Shown here one piece after another: positions 2,361-45,048 of a DNA stretch of 64,000 nt. The stretch is from Streptomyces halobius (GTDB lineage: Bacteria > Actinomycetota > Actinomycetes > Streptomycetales > Streptomycetaceae), in the NCBI RefSeq assembly GCF_023277745.1, contig NZ_CP086322.1, positions 5,766,001-5,830,000 on the forward strand. Direction: 5' to 3'. How positions within the stretch are numbered: the first letter of the stretch is position 1; every line of letters starts with the position of its first letter. The position numbers and the translations under genes were made by a program. The notes beneath the pieces were generated by a model. It was not told where the DNA came from. It saw only the letters and a program-made list of their open reading frames with translations, and made no database searches.

Positions 2361-4115
2361 GTGCTTGACGTGCAAGACCCCCAGACCATGGTCTACCCGA
2401 GCCATCAACTTCGGGCCCTGTCGGGCATCCGACTGTCCGTGAAGACGGACGAGACCACCAGCCCCATGCGCCAGCGAGCGGCCAACACCGGGGAAGCAGC
2501 CAGGCGGGGCGCCGTCATCATCGGGGAAGCGGAAGACCTAGACGTTTCCGCAACCAAGACGAACCCGTTCGAGCGGCCGGAGCTGGGCGCGTGGCTCAAG
2601 CGCCCGGACGCGTTCGACATGATCATTTGGTGGCGCATGGACCGGGCCGTCCGGTCCATGGCCGACATGGCTGCCTTGGGACAGTGGGCCAAGGAACACG
2701 GCAAGCTCCTGGTGTTCGCGGAAGGGCCCGGCGGTGCCCCGCTGGAACTGGACATGCGGCACTCGTCGCCGGTGTCTGAGCTGATCATGATGCTTCTTGC
2801 GTTCGCGGCGCAGATGGAAGCGGCAGCCATCCGGGAGCGCGTCACCGGCGCGATGGCGGCACTGAGGGCCCAGGGTCGGTACTCCGGCGGCCTGATCCCG
2901 TTCGGATACAAGAAGATCCCGAACCCGGATGGGGAAGGCTGGAAGCTGGGCCCTGACATGGACGCGGTGGCCATCCTGGAGCGCATCATCCGGGACGTGC
3001 TGGACGGTAAGAGCCTCCAGTCCATAGCCATGGAGCTGAACGGGGATGAGGTTCTGGCCCCGCGCGACTACCAAGCAAAGCTCCTGGGTCGGCCCACGGG
3101 CGGGAAGCGCCACGGGCGAATAATCGAGCGGTTCAAGTGGACGGCCGGCACACTTTCCAAGGTACTCCGCACCAAGACCCTCATGGGGCACAAGACGCAC
3201 AAGGGGAAGACCGTCCGGGACAAGGACGGTAAGCCCATCTTGATCGGGGAACCGGTTCTGGAGCGCGACGAATTCGAAGGTCTCCAGGTCACGTTGGACT
3301 CCCGTACGCCGCACAGGGAGCGGCGGCGCAAGGACACGCGTTCGCTGCTGCTGGCCGTGGCGCATTGCGAGGGGTGCGGGACGCGTATGTACAAGGCTCC
3401 CCGTGCTGGATCGCCGGACGGGGATTACAACTGCCGGGCCATGGCCGCTGGCGTCAAGTGCCCGTCCTCGGCAGGTGTCCGTGCGGACTGGCTGGAGGCG
3501 TATGCGGAACGGGAGTTCCTGGACTTGGGGGGGTCGGCTCGGATGACGCGGACCATTGAGCACAAGGGGTACGACCCCGGCCCGGAGCTGCGTGAAGTCG
3601 AACAGGAACTCCGGGCCTTGTACGCGGACAAGGACGCGCGGAAATCCAAGATGGGCCGGATGATCTGGCAAGAGGAAGTAGACGCCTTGGAGCGCCGGGC
3701 GAGCGCCTTGGAGGCCACGCCGAAGGTGGAGGCCCGTACAGAGATCATCGAGACCGGGGAGACGTTCGCCCAGCACTGGCGGGCCCTGGAGCCGGTCAAG
3801 CCCATGTCCAAGGTGTACCCGGACAAGGAGCTGGAGGCTCCGCCGGTCGTGCCGGAGGACATGGACGAGACCGACGTGACGACCTGGGAGAACTTCCAGG
3901 CGGATTGCCGGGGCTGGGAGACATACCAGCAGGCGCTTACGGAGGCCATCGCGGAGCGTCGCCGGATGCTCGTGGAGGCGGGGGCGCGTGTGTACGTCTC
4001 CAAGGGCATCTCCGGTGGGCGTGCCGATCGAGTCTTGGACGAGAGCCGGGTGCGGTTCGTGATCGAGCGCAGCGAACCGGAGGCGGACACGCTTCTGTAC
4101 GACGTGCAAGACTGA
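2361..4115 (+). CDS. int: large serine integrase
   Basis: 584 aa, the usual size for phage large serine recombinases. The N-terminal catalytic domain has the nucleophile in GIRLSVKTDE (Ser26) and the arginine motif WWRMDRAVRSM. A recombinase domain follows (about 170-280; GLIPFGYKK), then a zinc ribbon (CEGCG near 335, NC and KC about 20-35 residues later) and a predicted coiled coil (about 400-440; EQELRALYADKDARKSKMGR). It would cut attP and attB at the core and exchange ends without host factors. GTG start with GAGAGG eight bases upstream; the promoter must lie within or beside attP, so expression depends on integration state. Confidence 0.95.
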   Translation: MLDVQDPQTMVYPSHQLRALSGIRLSVKTDETTSPMRQRAANTGEAARRGAVIIGEAEDLDVSATKTNPFERPELGAWLKRPDAFDMIIWWRMDRAVRSMADMAALGQWAKEHGKLLVFAEGPGGAPLELDMRHSSPVSELIMMLLAFAAQMEAAAIRERVTGAMAALRAQGRYSGGLIPFGYKKIPNPDGEGWKLGPDMDAVAILERIIRDVLDGKSLQSIAMELNGDEVLAPRDYQAKLLGRPTGGKRHGRIIERFKWTAGTLSKVLRTKTLMGHKTHKGKTVRDKDGKPILIGEPVLERDEFEGLQVTLDSRTPHRERRRKDTRSLLLAVAHCEGCGTRMYKAPRAGSPDGDYNCRAMAAGVKCPSSAGVRADWLEAYAEREFLDLGGSARMTRTIEHKGYDPGPELREVEQELRALYADKDARKSKMGRMIWQEEVDALERRASALEATPKVEARTEIIETGETFAQHWRALEPVKPMSKVYPDKELEAPPVVPEDMDETDVTTWENFQADCRGWETYQQALTEAIAERRRMLVEAGARVYVSKGISGGRADRVLDESRVRFVIERSEPEADTLLYDVQD

Positions 4116-4493: not shown

Positions 4494-4565
4494 GGTCCCG
4501 TAGCTCAGTGGTAGAGCGCCCGATCGTCGATCGGATGGGCGCCGGTTCGATTCCGGCCGGGACCG
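4494..4565 (+). tRNA. phage tRNA-Asp (GTC), atypical anticodon loop
   Basis: Complete cloverleaf: acceptor GGTCCCG/CGGGACC, D arm GCTC/GAGC with loop AGTGGTA, T arm GCCGG-TTCGATT-CCGGC, discriminator G and no encoded CCA. With standard numbering the anticodon is GTC (Asp); discriminator G also fits Asp. Two oddities: position 33 is C rather than the near-invariant U, and the first anticodon-stem pair (27-43) is C-A. These suggest a drifting or specialised tRNA. The rest of 4203-4493 shows no gene; it has one short AT-rich patch near 4240-4265. Confidence 0.75.
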
Positions 4566-4571
4566 CTTACG

Positions 4572-28168: not shown

Positions 28169-30601
28169 TTGCGTAAGGACCTTGCCCAGTTCCTGGCCCG
28201 CTTCCCGGAAGTGGTGGAGGAGCGTGGGGAGTACGGCGTCCCCTGCCCCGTGCACGATGACCAGCGCCCCTCCCTGTTCTTCCGCCTCAAGGAGGACGGC
28301 CGGCTCCTGATGCGGTGCTGGGCGGGGTGTTCCCGTGACGCCATCCTGGCGGCTCTGGGCATGCGGGCGTCGGACCTGTTCGACTGGACCCCTGGGGCAG
28401 GGGTGAAGGCGTCGGCCAAGCCGGTGCCCGGCGCTCTGGATACCGGCGCCCTCGCGGCCCTAGCCCAGTACGTGGACACCACGAACGTGGCGTTCCTGGA
28501 CCCGGAGCACCCAGAGGCCCGGGACTACGTACTCCAGCGCTTTGGCCTGGACGCGGAGCGCGCGGTGGACCTCGGCCTGGGCCTGGACTACCCGGGCCTG
28601 GACGACCGGTTCACCTACCGCTCTACCGGCTACCTGCGCCACCCTCGCTTGACGGTCCCGCTGTGCGACTTCAACGGCAGGCCCCGGGGCCTCCAGGGCC
28701 GGGACCTGACCGGCCACTGTCCGGCCCGGTGGCTTTCCATCGTTTCACCGGAAGGAAGTGCGTGGGCCAAATACGGCGCCCTGCGGGCCCGTTCCGGCTA
28801 TGACACGGTGCTGGTCACTGAGGGTCCCGCCGACGGTCTCACGGCCCTGGCCGTCGGGTACGACGTGGTGATGGTGCGTGGCGCGGGCCTCGCCCGTAAC
28901 GCGGCCTTGGTGGAGGAGCTGGCGGCGGGCCTGGGGGACCGGGACGTGGTGCTGGCCGGGGACCGGGACAACGCGGGGGCCGCGTTCACTGACGCCCTGG
29001 CGGACGCGTTGGTCCGGGCCGGGGTCATGGTCCGGAAACTGGAGATCTCGACGGCCGGGGACGATCTGGCCGACTGGCGGGCCCGTGCCCCGGAGGCGTT
29101 CCCCGGCCAGCTCCACGCGGCCGTCCGCCGGGCGGTCCTCCACACCGTGGACATGGAGCCGGAGGTGGAATCCGCGGTGGCCCCGCAGGAGCCGGAGCCG
29201 GACGTGACGTTCCCGCTCACCGACCTGGGCAATGCGGAGAGGCTGTTTCGCCAACTCGGCGGGCATGTCCGGATGGTGCCGGGCGTGGGCGTGTTCAAGT
29301 GGCACGGTCGGCACTGGGCCCAGGTCCCACAGGAAGCGCTGTATGCGGACGTTCGGCGGGTGGTGAAGGCCATGGCCAGCGAACCGGGCCACGATCCGGA
29401 GAAGCTGTCCAAACACCTGGTGAACTCGCAGAATGCAAGCAAGGTCAAGGGGATGGTGGAGATGCTGTCTTCCATCCCCGGTGTGTACGCCACCGTGGAG
29501 CAGTTCGACGCGGCCCCTCACCTCCTGGCGTTCGCGAACGGAGTGGTGGACCTGCGCACGGGCCAGCTCCGGGAGGCGGACCCGGCCGACATGAACACAT
29601 TTTTCGTGGACGTGGCGTACCGGCCGGAGGCCCAAGCCCCGCGCTGGGAACGGTTTTTGCAGGAGTGCCACCCGTCGTGTGAGGCCATGCCGGCCTTTCT
29701 GCAGCGACTCACCGGCTACGGCATCAGCGGGTACGGCGTGGAGCGGATATTCGTGATGCACGTGGGCCCGACAACCAACGGGAAGACGACGTTCACCACG
29801 GCTCTGGAGAACGTGTTCCGGGAGGCCGTGAAGCGGGCGGACGCGAGCCTGTTCCAAAAGCGCCGCGAGTCCGGCGGGCCGCGCGCGGACGTGGTGGGCC
29901 TGCGGGGCCGACGGCTGGTGATCTCCTCCGAGTGGCCTGCGAACATGCCTTTGGACCAAGCCCTGATGAAGGCGGTCACGGGGGATCAGACCATCACGGC
30001 CCGAGGCGTTTACGCACGGAGTGAAATCACATTCAAGCCGGTGTGTCTGGTCCAGGTGGACACCAACTATGTGCCCGACGTTGACGCCACGGACGCCGCC
30101 CTGTGGCAACGCGTTCGTGTCGTCCCGTGGGGCGAGGATTTCCGGGGGCGGGAGGACCGCCACCTCCAGGCCACGCTTCGCCAGGAGCGGGAGGGCATCG
30201 CGGCATGGGCCGTGAGAGGCGCAGTGGCCTGGTTCAAGGCGTATGAAAGCGGCCGGGGCCTGGAGTTCCCGGCGGCCGTGGAGTCGCGCACGGCGCACTA
30301 CCGGGACAGCTCCCACCCGTTGAGCGGTTTCATCGGGGAGGAGTTCGAGGTCCAGGCGGGTTCGCAGGTCTCCCGGTCGGAGACCTGGGACCGCTACCGC
30401 TCGTGGGTGGAGGAGTGCGGCATCCGCCACCCGATGACCCGCAACAAGTTCTACGACGCTTTGAGGACCTTCCCGGGTGTGCGGGAGAAGAAGTCTTACG
30501 GGGTGTTCGTCATGGAGAACCTGGCCGACTGCCGCGCGGTGTCACGCGGCCCAGTGCATGGGGGTGAGACGGACATATTCGGCCAGGCCAAGGCGGTCTA
30601 G
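28169..30601 (+). CDS. primase-helicase (Toprim + D5/SF3 helicase)
   Basis: 810 aa; TTG start with GGAGGAG upstream. Order: CHC2-type zinc finger (CPVHDD ... MRCWAGCS, residues 25-55), Toprim domain (VLVTEGPADGLTALAVG with Glu, and VVLAGDRDNAGAAF with DxD, about 210-275), then a D5/phage P4-type region and an SF3 helicase P-loop GPTTNGKTTFTTAL (about 530) followed by LVISSEWPANMPLDQALMK. It primes and unwinds DNA at the fork. The same fusion is found in phiC31-like phages. Confidence 0.92.
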   Translation: MRKDLAQFLARFPEVVEERGEYGVPCPVHDDQRPSLFFRLKEDGRLLMRCWAGCSRDAILAALGMRASDLFDWTPGAGVKASAKPVPGALDTGALAALAQYVDTTNVAFLDPEHPEARDYVLQRFGLDAERAVDLGLGLDYPGLDDRFTYRSTGYLRHPRLTVPLCDFNGRPRGLQGRDLTGHCPARWLSIVSPEGSAWAKYGALRARSGYDTVLVTEGPADGLTALAVGYDVVMVRGAGLARNAALVEELAAGLGDRDVVLAGDRDNAGAAFTDALADALVRAGVMVRKLEISTAGDDLADWRARAPEAFPGQLHAAVRRAVLHTVDMEPEVESAVAPQEPEPDVTFPLTDLGNAERLFRQLGGHVRMVPGVGVFKWHGRHWAQVPQEALYADVRRVVKAMASEPGHDPEKLSKHLVNSQNASKVKGMVEMLSSIPGVYATVEQFDAAPHLLAFANGVVDLRTGQLREADPADMNTFFVDVAYRPEAQAPRWERFLQECHPSCEAMPAFLQRLTGYGISGYGVERIFVMHVGPTTNGKTTFTTALENVFREAVKRADASLFQKRRESGGPRADVVGLRGRRLVISSEWPANMPLDQALMKAVTGDQTITARGVYARSEITFKPVCLVQVDTNYVPDVDATDAALWQRVRVVPWGEDFRGREDRHLQATLRQEREGIAAWAVRGAVAWFKAYESGRGLEFPAAVESRTAHYRDSSHPLSGFIGEEFEVQAGSQVSRSETWDRYRSWVEECGIRHPMTRNKFYDALRTFPGVREKKSYGVFVMENLADCRAVSRGPVHGGETDIFGQAKAV
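30541..30560 (+). repeat. 20-bp early repeat, copy 4 (inside primase 3' end)
   Basis: GTCACGCGGCCCAGTGCATG; two to three changes from consensus. The only copy inside a gene, encoding the last residues of the primase. It lies 158 bp before the polymerase start. Confidence 0.7.
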
Positions 30602-30698: not shown

Positions 30699-32561
30699 GT
30701 GAAGACTTACCGCCACACCCTCGCCGGGGACGTGACGACCATCCATGCGTTGGAGACGGACGACGACGCCCGGGAGGCCCGGGAATGGCTCACGGCTCAT
30801 CAGCCACGGTCCCTCGCGCTGGACACGGAGACCACGGGCTTGGACACCTTCAGCCCAGGGCACCGACTCCGGACGGTGCAGTATGGCGACCGGGACACGG
30901 CGTTCGTCGTTCCCTTCGAGCGGGGCGGACCGTTCGCGGACGTGGCGCGGACCGTGGTCACGCGGTGCCCGGAGCTGGTGATCCATAACGCCGCCTATGA
31001 CCTGTTGGTCTTGGACCGCCACGGCGTGGCCCCTCTGGAGGCCGTCGCGCCCCGAGTCCGGGACACCAAGATCCTGGCCCACCTGTCCGACAGTCGCCAG
31101 GACTTTGAGGGCGGCGTGGGGGTCAGCCTCAAACCGTTGTCCGCCTGGTACGTGGACCCGGCGGCCCCCGACACCCAAAAGGGCCTGACCCGCGTTTTCC
31201 ACGCTCACGGCCTGACAAAGGAAACCGGCTGGGCCGGGGTCCCGTACGAGGACGAGACGTACCAGCGCTACGCCGGTTTGGACGTGCTCCTGGCCGCCCG
31301 CCTCCGCCCCCACCTGGAACAGGAGCTGGAACGCCATGGCATCCCGGACGTGCTGGTGGAGTTCGAGCACCGGCTCATGGCCATATGCGCGGCCCTGGAA
31401 CGCCGGGGGATGCTCCTGGACGTGCCGTACACGGAGGGCCTGGTGGGCCGGCTCCAGGAGGCGGCGGAGCGCCACGCGGCCAAGGCCGCGAGGTACGGCG
31501 TGGAGAACGTCAACTCTGACCGCCAGGTGGCCGCTGCGCTCCAAGGCATGGGGGAGCAGTGGGAGGAGCGCACCGACTCCGGCGCCCTCTCCGTCGCCAA
31601 GGAAGTGCTGTTGCCCCTGGCGGACCTGAACGACAAGTGGGAGCGGCTGAACGTCCGCACCCCCAACCCGTTGGCGGACGCCGTGCTCCACGCAAAGCGC
31701 GCGGGCCGGTGGCGCAAGTCATACGCCCTGGCCATGCTGGAGCGCCGGGACGCCGGAGACCGCGTACACCCGAAGATCAACACACTGGGCGCCAAGACGG
31801 CCCGCGCGTCGGTGTCGGACCCGCCGTTCCAGCAGCTTCCTTCCAAAGGCTGGGAGATCCGCCGCTCCGTGATTGCGGAGCCGGGAAACGTGTACTTCAG
31901 CGTGGACCAATCGTCGGTGGAGCTGGTCGTCCTGGCCGCCCTCTCACAAGAACCGCGCATGTGTGACGCGATCCGAGGCGGCAGGAACTTGCACGATCAC
32001 ACGGCCACGTTGATGTTCGGAGCCGAGTTCACGAAGCACCAGCGCGGCCTTGCCAAAGTCGCGGGCCTGGGGACCTCCTACCAGGGTGGGGCCAAGACCC
32101 TCGCGAAGCAGACCGGGCTATCGGTGGAGGTTATGCGGGACACCCTGGCCCGCTACGCCAAGGCGTACCCGGGAATCAAGCGATGGGCCCGCGGCCTCCA
32201 GCGCCACGCCTTGGCGAACAACTGCGAGATCCGCACGCCCTCCGGCCGGCGCCTGGTCCTCGACCGGGACAAGCTCTATAAGGGCGTGGCTTACATGTGC
32301 CAGTCAACGGCGCGGGACACGATGGGTCAGGCGCTCATCGACCTTCAGGACAAGGGCCTGACCCAGTATCTAAACCTGTGGGTGCATGACGAAGCGCTGG
32401 GCACGGCCCCGGAAACGGAGGCGGCCGACATTGCCCGGGAGGTAGCGGAGACGGTCCGCATGGACCTGTTCGGTGTTCCTATCGGCACGGATGCGGAGGT
32501 TTACGGTCGTACGTGGGCTGGCGGCTACGGCCTTCCGCCAGAGTGGGCCCCAGCCGCCTAA
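30699..32561 (+). CDS. family A DNA polymerase (PolI-like)
   Basis: 620 aa from GTG at 30699 with GGAG eight bases before; an earlier GTG at 30684 is possible. The N-terminal 3'-5' exonuclease has DTETTGLDTF (Exo I), VIHNAAYDLLVLD (Exo II) and YAGLDVLLAARL (Exo III). The polymerase part has INTLGAKTARASVSDPPFQQ (motif around 360), VDQSSVELVVLAALS (motif A, Asp-Gln-Ser rather than Asp-Tyr-Ser), the O-helix-like KVAGLGTSYQGG, and LWVHDEALG (motif C, His-Asp-Glu). It copies the phage genome. No 5'-nuclease domain. Confidence 0.93.
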   Translation: MKTYRHTLAGDVTTIHALETDDDAREAREWLTAHQPRSLALDTETTGLDTFSPGHRLRTVQYGDRDTAFVVPFERGGPFADVARTVVTRCPELVIHNAAYDLLVLDRHGVAPLEAVAPRVRDTKILAHLSDSRQDFEGGVGVSLKPLSAWYVDPAAPDTQKGLTRVFHAHGLTKETGWAGVPYEDETYQRYAGLDVLLAARLRPHLEQELERHGIPDVLVEFEHRLMAICAALERRGMLLDVPYTEGLVGRLQEAAERHAAKAARYGVENVNSDRQVAAALQGMGEQWEERTDSGALSVAKEVLLPLADLNDKWERLNVRTPNPLADAVLHAKRAGRWRKSYALAMLERRDAGDRVHPKINTLGAKTARASVSDPPFQQLPSKGWEIRRSVIAEPGNVYFSVDQSSVELVVLAALSQEPRMCDAIRGGRNLHDHTATLMFGAEFTKHQRGLAKVAGLGTSYQGGAKTLAKQTGLSVEVMRDTLARYAKAYPGIKRWARGLQRHALANNCEIRTPSGRRLVLDRDKLYKGVAYMCQSTARDTMGQALIDLQDKGLTQYLNLWVHDEALGTAPETEAADIAREVAETVRMDLFGVPIGTDAEVYGRTWAGGYGLPPEWAPAA

Positions 32562-32863: not shown

Positions 32864-32899
32864 AGAGGGGCCCCGCCTGTGCGGGGCCTCTCGCTTTTT
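32864..32899 (+). terminator. terminator after replication genes
   Basis: AGAGGGGCCCCGC-CTGT-GCGGGGCCTCT, then CGCTTTTT. Strong intrinsic terminator. Confidence 0.88.
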
Positions 32900-32998: not shown

Positions 32999-33160
32999 GC
33001 TGTGACCTGCGGAAATGTCCAATATCTAGATCATTTCGAGCTCCTTGTTCGATATGCGCCAAAAAACCTACACGTTGGTGATCTCAACGACTCGTTATCT
33101 ACCTTCGTTGGCAGTTCGAACGCACCGCGTAACTCGACGAAGACGAAATGGAGACGTGTA

Positions 33161-33832
33161 GTGACTCATGATGGCCGGGCGGAACGGACCCCCCAGCAGG
33201 AGCGCTCCATCCGCACCCGTAGCCGCATCCTCGAATGCGCAGCGACCCTTTTCGATAGGCACGGCTATCCCATGACCACGGTGGGCGACATCGCAAAAGA
33301 GGCTGAGGTCACGCGCGGTGCCCTGTACTACCACTTCCGCGATAAGCAGGCCGTCGCCGCTGCCATCTTCGAGGAGCAGTTCGAGGGAATGTCTGTTCCT
33401 CCGCAACATCTGCGGGTGCAGGAACTTGTAGACGCAACCTACCTGCTCGTATATGGGCTGCGAATCAACCCGATCCAGCGGGGTGCCGCACGCCTGACGA
33501 TGGAACAGGGCACCGACCGCGTCGACCGGACACGGGTCATGCAAATGTGGATCGATTTCGTGGTATCGATCCTGTCAGAGGCCCAAAAGCAGGGGGAAGT
33601 TCGGCCCGAGGTGGACGTTAACAGGGCTTCCAGGTATTTCGTGGCAGCTTTTGCAGGAGTGCAAAACATGTCACAGGCGTTCACCAAGCGGCATGACCTC
33701 GACGAGTACCTGACGGACATGTGGCAGTACACCCTGCCTGCCATCGTCAGCGATGGCGTAATGGCCAAAATCATGCTCGACCCAGAGCGAGGTGCGCAAC
33801 TCGCGCGCCACGGAATAGCACTGGCAAGCTAA
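33161..33832 (+). CDS. TetR-family gamma-butyrolactone receptor homologue
   Basis: 223 aa; GTG with GGAG seven bases upstream. The N-terminal HTH (IRTRSRILECAATLFDRHGY, VGDIAKEAEVTRGALYYHF) and the next block (PPQHLRVQELVDATYLLVYG, INPIQRGAARLTMEQG) match the ScbR/ArpA/CprB group much more closely than TetR in general. Trp130 (VMQMWIDFVV) is at the place of the ligand-pocket Trp of true receptors. These proteins repress antibiotic and development genes until a hormone binds. In a prophage it may connect lysogeny or cargo to host signalling. Base composition upstream differs from neighbours, suggesting transfer. Confidence 0.85.
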   Translation: MTHDGRAERTPQQERSIRTRSRILECAATLFDRHGYPMTTVGDIAKEAEVTRGALYYHFRDKQAVAAAIFEEQFEGMSVPPQHLRVQELVDATYLLVYGLRINPIQRGAARLTMEQGTDRVDRTRVMQMWIDFVVSILSEAQKQGEVRPEVDVNRASRYFVAAFAGVQNMSQAFTKRHDLDEYLTDMWQYTLPAIVSDGVMAKIMLDPERGAQLARHGIALAS

Positions 33833-33856: not shown

Positions 33857-34006
33857 GTGATCGCACTGTGCGCGCTCGTTGCCGTATGGGAAGCGCTGTC
33901 GAAGCTGGTACTGCTCTTCACCGTAGCGGCTTTGATGATCCTGGCGATCGCCACGTCGCTCGCGTGCCTCGCCCTCGGTTCAGAGCCCAGAGACAGGTGC
34001 GAGTAG
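33857..34006 (+). CDS. small membrane protein downstream of receptor
   Basis: 49 aa, GTG with a purine-rich GGGAAGGGGGG upstream. Ends: VAVWEALSKLVLLFTVAALM then ILAIATSLACLALG and a charged tail EPRDRCE. One long or two short membrane segments. Only 24 bp after the receptor gene, so probably co-transcribed. Unknown function. Confidence 0.5.
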   Translation: MIALCALVAVWEALSKLVLLFTVAALMILAIATSLACLALGSEPRDRCE

Positions 34007-34034: not shown

Positions 34035-34109
34035 TCCTACGGCCTATATGCCGGCTACATCACCGGTGCCGTTCTGCCGGTAGACGGCGGAGTCGGCATG
34101 GGTCACTGA
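34035..34109 (+). pseudogene. C-terminal scrap of FabG-type SDR
   Basis: In frame: YITGAVLPVDGGVGMGH followed by TGA. This is the ending of FabG-like short-chain reductases (YITG-x-V-x-x-VDGGxGMGH). Only about 24 codons remain, with no start. It may be a relic of the region from which the receptor gene came, or of an earlier recombination in a fabG gene. Confidence 0.65.
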
Positions 34110-34159
34110 CACCCGCGATTCCGTCCGGTACCGCACGTCACTGCGGCCGGTAAAGGAAA

Positions 34160-34193
34160 CCGGCGCCCAGGGGTTGCAGCCCCCGGGCGCCGG
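34160..34193 (+). terminator. terminator after receptor module
   Basis: CCGGCGCCC-A-GGGG-TTGCAG-CCCC-C-GGGCGCCGG, a long nearly perfect stem. Confidence 0.75.
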
Positions 34194-34290
34194 CCGATGC
34201 GCTCCCTTGCAGGGGAGCCATGTTCAGCTATCGAGGCCCGCTCAACCTTTGGTGAGAGAGTGCGGGACTCGGCTTACCACGAAGAGGATT

Positions 34291-34635
34291 GTGGCACTTC
34301 ACCCGACGCCCCGCGAAATCGACCGGCCTTCCCTGAGCACACATGCCCTGGAGTGCATCCGGCGGCGCGTGGCTGGCGTCCGCCAGGCCGGCCAGCCTCC
34401 ACAGGTGGCGGCGCTCTACCTGTGGCATCTGCGCAGCGCCCTGTACGCCTATGCGCTCCGCCTGGCCCTGGTCGCCTTCCCGCCGAAGGGCAGCCGGCTG
34501 CCGTACCTGCCCCGCGCCACCAGGCGCCGCCTCTACGCCCGCGCCACCCGCGTACCGCGTGACCGCGCCTGCGCCCTGACCGGCCTTGCCCGTCTGTCCA
34601 AGGCTGTTGGCATCACTGATCCGTCGGCGCTCTGA
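34291..34635 (+). CDS. small basic helical protein, unknown
   Basis: 114 aa from GTG at 34291 (GAAGAGG upstream). Rich in Arg, Leu and Ala with a long helical centre (VAALYLWHLRSALYAYALRL) that could be amphipathic or membrane-bound. Longer starts upstream are possible but run through the terminator. Not recognised. Confidence 0.45.
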   Translation: MALHPTPREIDRPSLSTHALECIRRRVAGVRQAGQPPQVAALYLWHLRSALYAYALRLALVAFPPKGSRLPYLPRATRRRLYARATRVPRDRACALTGLARLSKAVGITDPSAL

Positions 34636-34874
34636 GCCGGGCGGACCCCCTTTCAGGCCCCGCTCCGGCATCCAACGCCAGGGCGGGCCTTTTAGTTCGC
34701 TCGCTCTGAGCTAACCCATACCTGATCACGCGCGCCCCGTCGGGCCGCGCGGCGATGCCCCCTGCCAGCACGCCATCTCCCGGGGCACACCCCTACCCAC
34801 TCGTTCGAACATGCGTACGGACTTCAGGGCCCAGCTCTAACTCCCGATTCGAACAGGCGTGCGGATCTCCGCCT

Positions 34875-34940: not shown

Positions 34941-35807
34941 ATGCTTTGCCCCGCCCTGATTCGTGCTGCCCAGAACGGCGACACGGAGGCAACCGCCCAG
35001 GTACTGGACAGCCTGGAAGGAATGATCTACCGCCTGGCAGAGAAGTGCATGGCGCACACTCCGGGCCTGTCTGCCGGGTACGGGGACAAGTTGGAAGACC
35101 TCCGCCAGGACGGCAGGGTGGCGGCCCTGGAAGCGCTCGCCCGCTACAACCCGGAGGGCGGCGCCAAGTTCTCCACGTACGCCCACTCCCGCATCAAGGG
35201 CGCCGTCCTGGACAGCGCCTCCGGCCGCTCCGGGCCGACGATTTCGGCCGACGCGGTGGCGACCTTCAAGGGCTGCATGGGCATCGTCGGCGGGGACTTG
35301 GAGGCCGCGGAATACCTGGCCACTGTCCTGCCCAGCTCAAGCCACCGCCTCAGTGCAGAAACGTCACTTCGGGTCCGCCAGGTCCTGGAAGGAACGGTAT
35401 TCCTGGACGCCATGGACCCCACCAGTCGGGAAGGCGAACCCCTGGCGGAGGGTCTGGCAGACCCTTACCGGTACGGCGTGCCGGAGGACTTGGTGGAGCC
35501 GCGGGACGTGGCCATCCAGGACCGGGCCCGGAAGGCGGCCCTGGCGCATGCCCTCCTGGAGAAGCTTCACGGCAACGCGGACCGTGTGGTCCGGATGACC
35601 TACGGTTTCGACCCCGAACCCCACCTGTTCAACGGGTACGACGCCGACGGCCTCCCGATACCCGACCACTCCGCCATAGCGGAGGCTCTGGGCATCACCG
35701 TGGCCACCTCCCGCCAGACGCTGAAGCGGGCCCTGGACCGGCTCCGCACGGCCGTCCAGACGCTGGCCCTGGAGGACGTGGACCTGGACGTGGAGCTGGC
35801 CGCGTGA
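34941..35807 (+). CDS. phage-encoded sigma-70 type factor
   Basis: 288 aa; ATG with AAGGAG upstream. Region 2 is clear: LEDLRQDGRVAALEALARYN then GGAKFSTYAHSRIKGAVLD (the helix that contacts RNA polymerase and the -10). Region 4 is in the C-terminal part: DHSAIAEALGITVATSRQTL / KRALDRLRTAVQ, a sigma-type HTH. The middle is divergent. It could direct host RNA polymerase to phage promoters, for example for the late operon, which encodes no other activator. Overlaps the HNH gene (GTGA). Confidence 0.85.
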   Translation: MLCPALIRAAQNGDTEATAQVLDSLEGMIYRLAEKCMAHTPGLSAGYGDKLEDLRQDGRVAALEALARYNPEGGAKFSTYAHSRIKGAVLDSASGRSGPTISADAVATFKGCMGIVGGDLEAAEYLATVLPSSSHRLSAETSLRVRQVLEGTVFLDAMDPTSREGEPLAEGLADPYRYGVPEDLVEPRDVAIQDRARKAALAHALLEKLHGNADRVVRMTYGFDPEPHLFNGYDADGLPIPDHSAIAEALGITVATSRQTLKRALDRLRTAVQTLALEDVDLDVELAA

Positions 35808-45005: not shown

Positions 45006-45048
45006 CTGTACTCTGTTTCAACCGGGTGGCGCATCGACTACCACATGG
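45006..45048. other. attR (prophage right attachment site), core GGGTGGC 45024-45030
   Basis: Phage side carries GTACT-CTGTTTC (45008-45019), the inverted match of GAAACAG and AGTAC near attL. Host side continues xthA at CGCATCGACTAC (RIDY). Reconstructed attP is arm - AACC - GGGTGGC - CGGTA - arm. Confidence 0.9.

Follow-up and report, generated by a model that had tools for sequence, protein, structure and literature searches.

The gene at 33161 to 33832 on the forward strand encodes a phage-borne member of the ScbR/ArpA family of hormone receptors, the regulators through which Streptomyces senses its own antibiotic-triggering hormones. It lies in the window, by which we mean the whole 64,000-nucleotide stretch analyzed here (bases 5766001 to 5830000 of a 9.24-Mb chromosome), whose proteins find their closest company in Streptomyces, and it belongs to a prophage related to Streptomyces phage Attoomi. 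The gene has dyads upstream, a terminator and a hairpin on its flanks, remnants of a short-chain-dehydrogenase-type (SDR) gene behind it, pocket residues of the family in its product, and a phage context on both sides.

The receptor belongs to the ScbR/ArpA family

The 223-amino-acid receptor starts at a GTG codon at 33161, with GGAG 7 bases upstream, and its reading frame of 223 codons closes with a stop that ends at 33832. The protein scored 196.4 bits (E = 5e-58) against NCBIfam NF041196, the equivalog profile for ScbR family autoregulator-binding factors, which has a curated cutoff of 150 bits, and the match ran from residues 13 to 196 over profile positions 1 to 190 of 191. Pfam recognized a TetR_N domain (E = 8e-16) and a TetR C-terminal domain. 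The best match in the PDB was the avenolide receptor AvaR1 (E = 2e-45, residues 11 to 214), with further matches to the gamma-butyrolactone receptor 5xay (4e-35), to 6srn (5e-25), which we take to be MmfR, and to CprB (1.5e-16). The profile score and the extent of the AvaR1 match bear out the claim of an earlier note that the protein resembles ScbR, ArpA, and CprB along its whole length. It is 49% identical over 203 residues to the receptor encoded next to afsA in the host chromosome. Its pI of 6.3 is not diagnostic for receptor versus pseudo-receptor.

We built a tree of 62 proteins, in which the phage-type members were the receptors of the window, of a second prophage in the same chromosome (described below), and of the viral loci L069 and L071, together with the database proteins P0002 to P0006. 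These nine formed a single clade (100/99), the sister of which was a protein of the Streptomyces genome G389 (locus L043; 100/99); next out came a host-lineage receptor clade that includes the host's afsA-adjacent copy (99/98) and, after it, the clade that holds AvaR1 and 5xay (93/84). A second tree, from which six rows, most of them on long branches, had been removed and to which eight generic TetR proteins encoded in the window's genome had been added, gave the same placements (100/99, 100/99, 100/98, and 96/82). In these trees, which were composed without any named pseudo-receptor, the receptor nests within the hormone-receptor family and the generic TetR proteins fall outside, so the grouping with generic TetR regulators that would have counted against the earlier note did not occur. 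The 29 reference family loci from sampled Streptomyces genomes were the best-scoring places rather than a random draw; 19 of them had an AfsA-like match in the fetched flank (tblastn with the host AfsA, E <= 1e-4). We rejected a generic TetR identity because the NF041196 score exceeded the cutoff and the eight generic TetR rows fell outside the family.

A protein search with the receptor returned 16 proteins at E <= 0.001, six of which (P0001 to P0006) were 66 to 100% identical, the others being less than 50% identical over partial length. P0002 to P0006 were assigned to the clade by sequence alone. The nine tree rows and the broken copy in L041/L070, which stood outside the trees and was placed by its 83% identity, make up the ten known clade members, and for five of the ten a phage location was shown. 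Among 392 sampled Streptomyces genomes, we found a receptor match at E <= 1e-60 in two, the window's genome (two copies) and G389, and a copy of the phage clade in one, the window's own; a set of 395 "relatives" genomes that overlaps this sample held no further case at E <= 1e-75. The 15 loci that a single-protein search of genome contigs brought up matched no better than TetR proteins in general do, and Streptomyces was named in none of their titles. Phage records yielded four tblastn matches, all below 60% identity and none spanning 80% of the query, and plasmid records yielded 460, again all below 60% identity; among the 40 of these 460 that were listed, many were annotated as ScbR family. 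In a viral scan with a mixed receptor alignment, 0 of 92 candidates were confirmed, and since the scan pattern is unable to match three known IMG/VR copies, the scan is uninformative on absence. The G389 relative (L043, L114) is like the phage receptors in its 51% identity and in its sister position in both trees but differs from them in its surroundings, the flanks of L043 being unlike the window's prophage at the DNA level.

The ratios of nonsynonymous to synonymous substitution rates (dN/dS) for the receptor were 0.23 (window-L041), 0.32 (window-L069), and 0.30 (L041-L069), with 0.66 for the L069-L071 pair, which is separated by three base differences; the phage polymerase gave 0.12 to 0.20 over four pairs. 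By these ratios, the receptor is under purifying selection that is looser than that on a core gene. Because dN/dS is 0.23 to 0.32 between diverged copies and because of the placement in the tree, the resemblance to hormone receptors is not due to chance.

The gene is carried by an Attoomi-like prophage

The prophage occupies 42.7 kb, from about 2300 to about 45030 (the ends are approximate and share GGGTGG), within a host exonuclease III-like gene. The host reading frame loses homology near 2310 and resumes near 45025; its left part matches PF03372, the exonuclease/endonuclease family (E = 5e-22), and we take the interrupted gene to be that for exonuclease III. A serine integrase with an uncertain start is encoded at 2361 to 4115 on the forward strand (PHROG 95 integrase, E = 1e-85; tblastn match to the Attoomi integrase at 2571 to 3812). 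The upstream neighbor of the receptor gene encodes the phage DNA polymerase (30699 to 32561, forward strand; 83% amino acid identity to Attoomi gp34), and the downstream neighbor encodes a phage sigma factor (34941 to 35807, forward strand; PF04542, E = 1e-10; PHROG 15865, E = 2e-69; 69% identity to Attoomi gp35). Attoomi (MG593801) shares the gene order and about 70 to 80% DNA identity over much of its genome but lacks the receptor and has, between its polymerase and sigma factor genes, a 693-bp gap without annotated genes. The collinearity with Attoomi and the interrupted PF03372 frame confirm the prophage location, and the neighbors confirm the position between the replication module and the sigma factor, both as claimed earlier. 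We rejected a plasmid or an integrative and conjugative element (ICE) on the grounds that the gene order agrees with that of Attoomi and a serine integrase is present. There is a tRNA-Asp gene at 4494 to 4566 near the integrase gene, and the ARAGORN call of a tRNA-Ser at 29219 to 29314, within the primase open reading frame (ORF), is probably false.

A second related prophage lies near 3.11 to 3.15 Mb of the same chromosome (locus G000:C1, about 3.105 to 3.150 Mb, L007 to L010), in a different gene, which from its translation is presumably YifB-like. Its receptor is a 99% identical protein. Between about 31.55 and 34.2 kb of the window, the DNA of the two prophages is 96 to 100% identical, whereas the surroundings are about 65 to 88% identical; other near-identical tracts lie at about 15.5 to 17.7 kb and, mostly, at 18.95 to 22.5 kb. 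Such tracts amid diverged surroundings suggest exchange between co-resident prophages, and because further tracts are similarly close, the exchange would not be confined to the receptor. The second prophage also has, in its polymerase/receptor gap, an insert of about 865 bp with the inverted ends GGGCTGTCCC/GGGACAGCCC, like a small mobile element, which holds a 170-amino-acid ORF (L008, 17725 to 18237) with no Pfam match.

Replacement of an SDR gene at the receptor site

Viral contigs were searched with a polymerase alignment, which gave 12 loci. From these and the two prophages, with duplicates and distant loci set aside, we assembled 11 distinct Attoomi-like genomes, for which a polymerase about 73% or more identical to that of Attoomi was required. 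L077 and L078 (58% polymerase identity) and L080 were dropped, and L074 was taken to be Attoomi again (same length, identical polymerase). L075 is identical to the genome G174 over its 14,187 bases, and L069 and L071 are near relatives (94 to 96%). Of the 392 Streptomyces genomes, 23 had a polymerase match at E <= 1e-150, and only the window's genome and G174 had one at the Attoomi level.

Of the 11 genomes, 5 (the window's prophage, the second prophage, L069, L070/L041, and L071) have the receptor at the polymerase-sigma site and 6 lack it. Two of the latter, L076 and L079, carry at the same site an MmyB-like regulator (PF17765, E = 1e-21 and 2e-24, respectively) and an intact SDR (PF13561, E = 2e-57 and 6e-57); three (Attoomi/L074, L072, and L073) have no regulator cassette; and in one (L075, the same as G174), the polymerase is fused in frame to the sigma factor across the site. 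The fused frame (L075/L046) encodes 814 amino acids, passing from polymerase residues 1 to 495 into sigma from residue 55, with the whole site deleted. In L076 (11925 to 13626) and L079 (13063 to 14764), the gene for the MmyB-like ligand-binding regulator is on the opposite strand and is accompanied by the intact SDR gene. The receptor copy of L041/L070 (L041 10001 to 10669) has one in-frame stop, at codon 87. At G389 locus L114 (4760 to 12679), the nearest relative outside the phage clade adjoins MmyB-like, chalcone-synthase-like, alcohol dehydrogenase, and AMP-binding genes, so the same two kinds of regulator, MmyB-like and ScbR-type, stand side by side there.

Behind the window's receptor gene, at 34050 to 34109 on the forward strand, we found the last 19 codons and the stop of an SDR gene, 84% identical to residues 216 to 234 of the L076 SDR. 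The same 19-codon tail follows the receptor in the second prophage. L070 retains the last five SDR codons and the stop, which overlap the receptor stop, and L069 and L071 have the same junction in a diverged 18-bp version, 15 of 18 positions of which are identical to L070. From these tails we conclude that an SDR gene once stood where the receptor gene is now, and the replaced unit was probably a pair of MmyB-like regulator and SDR. A single capture of the receptor, with two later junction forms, fits the tree; the trace in L069/L071 would be weak if taken alone.

Control elements around the receptor gene

An intrinsic terminator lies in the polymerase/receptor gap at 32865 to 32892 on the forward strand (12 pairs, 10 of them GC, with a T run; -27.1 kcal/mol). 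Between 32400 and 35100, there were five terminator-like matches, this one among them, with 1.3 expected, and no sigma-70-type promoter match. At 34160 to 34193 on the forward strand, a strong conserved hairpin lacking a T run (-37.2 kcal/mol for 34140 to 34200) is the likely end of the receptor transcript; its stem also folds in L069, L071, L076, and L079, and it is aligned in all seven cassette phages, that is, the five with the receptor and the two with the MmyB-like regulator and SDR. For a structured RNA at 34160 to 34218, no Rfam family came near its gathering score.

Two candidate operators precede the receptor gene. The first, the dyad AAACCTACACGTTGGTGA at 33064 to 33081 on the forward strand, resembles an autoregulatory element (ARE) and is present with 0 to 2 substitutions in all five receptor phages. 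At up to two mismatches it occurs in the 9.24-Mb genome only at the two receptor copies, and at three mismatches it occurs at five host places, compared with one for a reversed-pattern control. We scored ARE likeness against consensuses given in the accessible parts of PMC5744401 and PMC7480387, with three shuffles each. On the AvaR1 consensus from these texts, the dyad, read with ARE spacing, reached 16.25 of 20.08, which is not above the shuffled whole-prophage maxima. Scored against the same consensuses, no canonical ARE in the window's prophage or the second prophage rose above three shuffles, and a few ARE-type sites in L069, L070, and L071 equaled or slightly exceeded them.

The second candidate, at 33097 to 33116 on the forward strand, is an imperfect palindrome whose homologue is a perfect one, AACTACC-N6-GGTAGTT, in both L069 and L071. 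The window's version agrees with this motif at 12 of 14 positions and is the only site in the window with at least 11 (1.2 expected); agreement is 14 of 14 in L069 and L071, while L070, where the spacer is shorter, agrees at 11 of 14. The palindrome is degenerate in L041/L070, the phage with the broken receptor. Agreement at 11 of 14 was also reached at two further places in the 80 kb examined around the second prophage, neither of them within the phage, at two further places in L070, and at a single place in each of Attoomi and L072. A genome-wide search at up to two mismatches gave 9 places, including both receptor copies, versus 25 for the control and is therefore uninformative.

The ORF list includes a possible small hydrophobic ORF of 49 amino acids at 33857 to 34006 on the forward strand, with no Pfam match; its DNA is also present in the second prophage (96 to 99% identical), but nothing corresponding to it follows the receptor gene of L069, L070, or L071. 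Farther downstream, at 34291 to 34635 on the forward strand, a conserved small ORF of about 114 amino acids, basic and with an uncertain start, is found in all seven cassette phages and has no match in the four phages without the cassette (Attoomi, L072, L073, and L075). It matches no Pfam or PHROG family, and its dN/dS of 0.29 to 0.49 over five pairs suggests that it is coding. Upstream of it, at 34201 to 34218, is the conserved palindrome GCTCCCTTGCAGGGGAGC, which is imperfect in L069. Since this palindrome is present in all seven cassette phages, including L076 and L079 with their SDR and MmyB-like genes and no receptor, it is not tied to the receptor. The copy of it in the second prophage agrees with AACTACC-N6-GGTAGTT at 11 of 14 positions, a level at which 3.0 matches are expected per 80 kb. 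A role for 34201 to 34218 as a second receptor operator is doubtful, its presence in L076 and L079 speaking against it and the 11 of 14 in the second prophage for it, and we found among the seven cassette phages no operator before the small ORF that was specific to those with the receptor.

Upstream of the sigma factor gene, at 34805 to 34864 on the forward strand, are two conserved TTCGAAC..CGTRCG elements 44 bases apart, which we take to resemble actinobacterial LexA boxes. The TTCGAACA part of the second copy is present in all 10 aligned upstream regions, including that of Attoomi, whereas its CGTGCG part varies; the first copy is found only in the seven cassette phages. We looked for a receptor site that would make the receptor the controller of the sigma factor gene and found none; the sigma factor gene has conserved elements of its own, which receptor-less phages share. 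The data do not support a receptor that controls the sigma factor, because terminators lie on both sides of the receptor gene, the operator-like sites belong to the receptor promoter, and the sigma factor gene has its own elements. The suggestion in the earlier note that the receptor could let the phage time its induction likewise gained no support: the terminator at 32865 to 32892 and the hairpin at 34160 to 34193 bracket the receptor, and the conserved sites lie at the promoter of the receptor itself.

The ligand pocket appears to keep its lactone end

The roles of the AvaR1 pocket and DNA-contact residues were taken from the accessible part of PMC7347384. In the nine clade members, with the broken L041/L070 copy left out of the count, Gln64, Thr108, Trp127, Phe161, and Gln165 of AvaR1 are kept without exception, Val158 is kept in eight, and Thr162 is Ala in six, Thr in two, and Ser in one. 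His130 is replaced by Phe in all nine, Thr131 is replaced by Ala, Val, or Leu, and the DNA-contacting Lys43 is replaced by Arg in all nine. It thus looks as though the lactone end of the pocket has been kept and the tail end and the DNA reading have changed. For comparison, 20 rows of afsA-adjacent receptors have Trp127 in 20, Gln64 in 16, and Thr108 in 2, and the AvaR1-type clade has Trp127, Thr108, and His130 in 15 of 15 and Gln64 in 14 of 15. Since Thr108 is AvaR1-like but His130 is Phe, the residue pattern does not assign a ligand class; according to the accessible text of PMC7347384, the receptor classes have so far not been separable by sequence or phylogeny. The receptor's Trp130, which had been put forward as a mark of true receptors, does align with AvaR1 Trp127 and is kept in 9 of 9 members, but it is weak as a mark on its own, being present also in 6srn and in host_L012, another family member of the host.

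The host has a hormone circuit of its own

A synthase gene that adjoins the receptor gene is usual in the ScbR/ArpA family, although it is not required. In the host, a gene for an AfsA homologue (PF03756, E = 9e-24) is divergent from that for a family receptor, with an SDR-like ORF beyond; no other AfsA match at E <= 0.001 was found in the window's genome outside this locus at 613.7 to 614.5 kb. The intergenic region between afsA and the receptor gene holds a strong ARE, which scored 19.66 on the published consensuses, compared with shuffled maxima near 16 (three shuffles). The phage receptor comes without an AfsA-type synthase and would therefore depend on a signal made by others.

What the phage receptor may do

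The explanation that we favor, and to which we give an even chance, is that a Streptomyces receptor was captured by Attoomi-like temperate phages, is maintained by purifying selection, and forms a self-contained unit at the variable polymerase-sigma regulator site, in which it would act as a ligand-responsive autorepressor. This explanation draws on the NF041196 score, the placement in both trees, the kept pocket residues, the shared site in 5 of 11 Attoomi-like phages, the SDR tails, the dN/dS values, the upstream dyad in all five receptor phages, and the host pair of afsA and receptor with its strong ARE. In this scheme, the receptor dimer would bind its own promoter and repress it, entry of a host-made lactone hormone into the pocket would release the receptor from DNA, and the level of receptor would then track the hormone state of the host. 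The most likely output would be a prophage coupled to that state through the receptor's own unit; rather than acting directly on sigma, the receptor might work by way of the conserved small ORF downstream or through competition or dimerization with host receptors. What speaks against the scheme is that the upstream dyads match the published ARE consensuses only weakly, that Lys43 is Arg in all nine members, that Thr108 and the Phe at His130 leave the ligand class ambiguous, that one of the five phage copies has an in-frame stop and a degenerate palindrome, and that only 1 of 392 sampled genomes held a copy of the phage clade. The conserved small ORF would be the most attractive phage target, the sole hint of a link to the receptor being the 11-of-14 site in the second prophage.

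A more direct coupling, in which the receptor represses a phage activator or antirepressor so that host hormone triggers lysis late in colony development, is the reading of the earlier note and would be a counterpart of VqmA of phage VP882 and of phage LuxR receptors; it is unlikely in our judgment. It draws on the closeness of the phage receptor to that of the host (49% amino acid identity over 203 residues) beside phage control genes, on the presence of the small ORF with a regulator in 7 of 7 cassette phages and 0 of 4 others, on the 11-of-14 agreement of the palindrome before that ORF with the receptor motif in the second prophage, and on the existence of such induction in phages of other bacteria, as described in the available portions of PMC12324486 and PMC10432266. 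However, the palindrome motif of the window's prophage is matched only at the receptor promoter, the AAACCTACACGTTGGTGA dyad is found nowhere else in the genome at up to two mismatches, the hairpin separates the receptor from the small ORF, the palindrome before that ORF is also present in phages without the receptor, and the sigma factor gene has separate conserved elements. The same isolation of the unit, with a terminator before it and a hairpin behind it, would suit cargo directed at the host, in which a receptor expressed by the lysogen binds host AREs, dimerizes with host receptors, or soaks up hormone and so shifts antibiotic production or development. For this reading, which we consider possible but somewhat doubtful, 6 of the 11 relatives have no receptor at this site, as expected of a moron; a host hormone circuit is present; and the related AvaR1 and AvaR2 most likely heterodimerize, as stated in the part of PMC5744401 that was accessible. 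The absence of the dyad elsewhere in the genome at up to two mismatches and the DNA-contact residue that differs from that of the host argue against the sharing of host operators.

The ligand itself might be of another kind. A pseudo-receptor of the same family, with an antibiotic or other metabolite instead of a lactone hormone as its natural ligand, is an alternative that we likewise consider possible but somewhat doubtful and is consistent with the change of AvaR1 His130 to Phe in nine of nine and of Thr131 to Ala, Val, or Leu, as well as with the statement in the accessible text of PMC7347384 that sequence and phylogeny do not tell the receptor classes apart; it has against it that Gln64, Thr108, and Trp127 are kept and that the protein is close to the lineage of afsA-adjacent receptors. 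That the receptor is a mere passenger, captured in the recombination that replaced the SDR and now drifting, is very unlikely. The broken copy in L041/L070, the patchy distribution among Attoomi-like phages, and a receptor dN/dS of 0.23 to 0.32 (0.66 for one near-identical pair), above the 0.12 to 0.20 of the polymerase, would fit drift, but the purifying selection on the receptor, the retention of full length both in two phage lineages that have diverged (the window's prophage with the second one, and L069 with L071) and in another five proteins from databases, the invariant pocket positions, and the conserved upstream dyads would not.

Like the ScbR/ArpA/AvaR1 family covered by NF041196, the captured autorepressor that we favor has the whole-length sequence, the pocket and coupling residues, and upstream dyads, but it differs in being phage borne, in having no adjoining synthase gene, in having Arg for Lys43, and in its diverged dyads. 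As a host-type quorum receptor in a temperate phage, it is comparable with VqmA of phage VP882 and with phage LuxR proteins (PMC12324486 and PMC10432266, in the parts available), although VqmA and LuxR belong to other protein families and to phages of Gram-negative hosts, whereas here we have a presumed repressor of TetR type in an actinophage. The modules of a transcription factor and a small ORF (TF-smORF) of polylysogens, as the accessible part of PMC10432266 describes them, resemble the present case of an exchangeable regulator near a conserved small ORF without known domains, in a host that has two related prophages; the small ORF here differs from theirs in its greater size and in its orientation, since it follows the regulator on one strand, after a hairpin, instead of diverging from it. 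We also considered that the polymerase-sigma site is a socket for exchangeable sensors, ScbR-type or MmyB-like/SDR, combined with the small ORF in a hormone-gated induction module independent of DNA damage, which seems to us quite unlikely. The sensor would report the hormone state of the host and the small protein would act on the phage decision; whichever sensor is present, the conserved hairpin, the palindrome, and the small ORF come next.

Among the open-licence papers listed by our searches, we found no report of a phage-borne gamma-butyrolactone receptor. By term counts, "butyrolactone" is absent from the main texts of the Samy prophage paper (PMC11302927) and of a review of natural products and phages (PMC12360287); in PMC8782336 it appears in gene-cluster tables and "prophage" appears nowhere. 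Quorum signals are reported to alter the abundance of soil viruses (PMC7298970). The receptor gene described here lies in five temperate-phage contexts and is related to the host receptor (49% identity), and a virus with a host-type hormone receptor may listen in on, or interfere with, the signals of its host. The presence of two related prophages with near-identical receptors in one cell makes a natural case for competition or signal sharing. If the socket reading were true, the site would be an actinomycete counterpart of the TF-smORF modules. The known quorum-reading phages use receptors of the LuxR or VqmA type, and a lactone receptor of TetR type in actinophages would bring Streptomyces, as producers of antibiotics, and their hormones into this picture and, if true, would link prophage behavior to development and antibiotic production.
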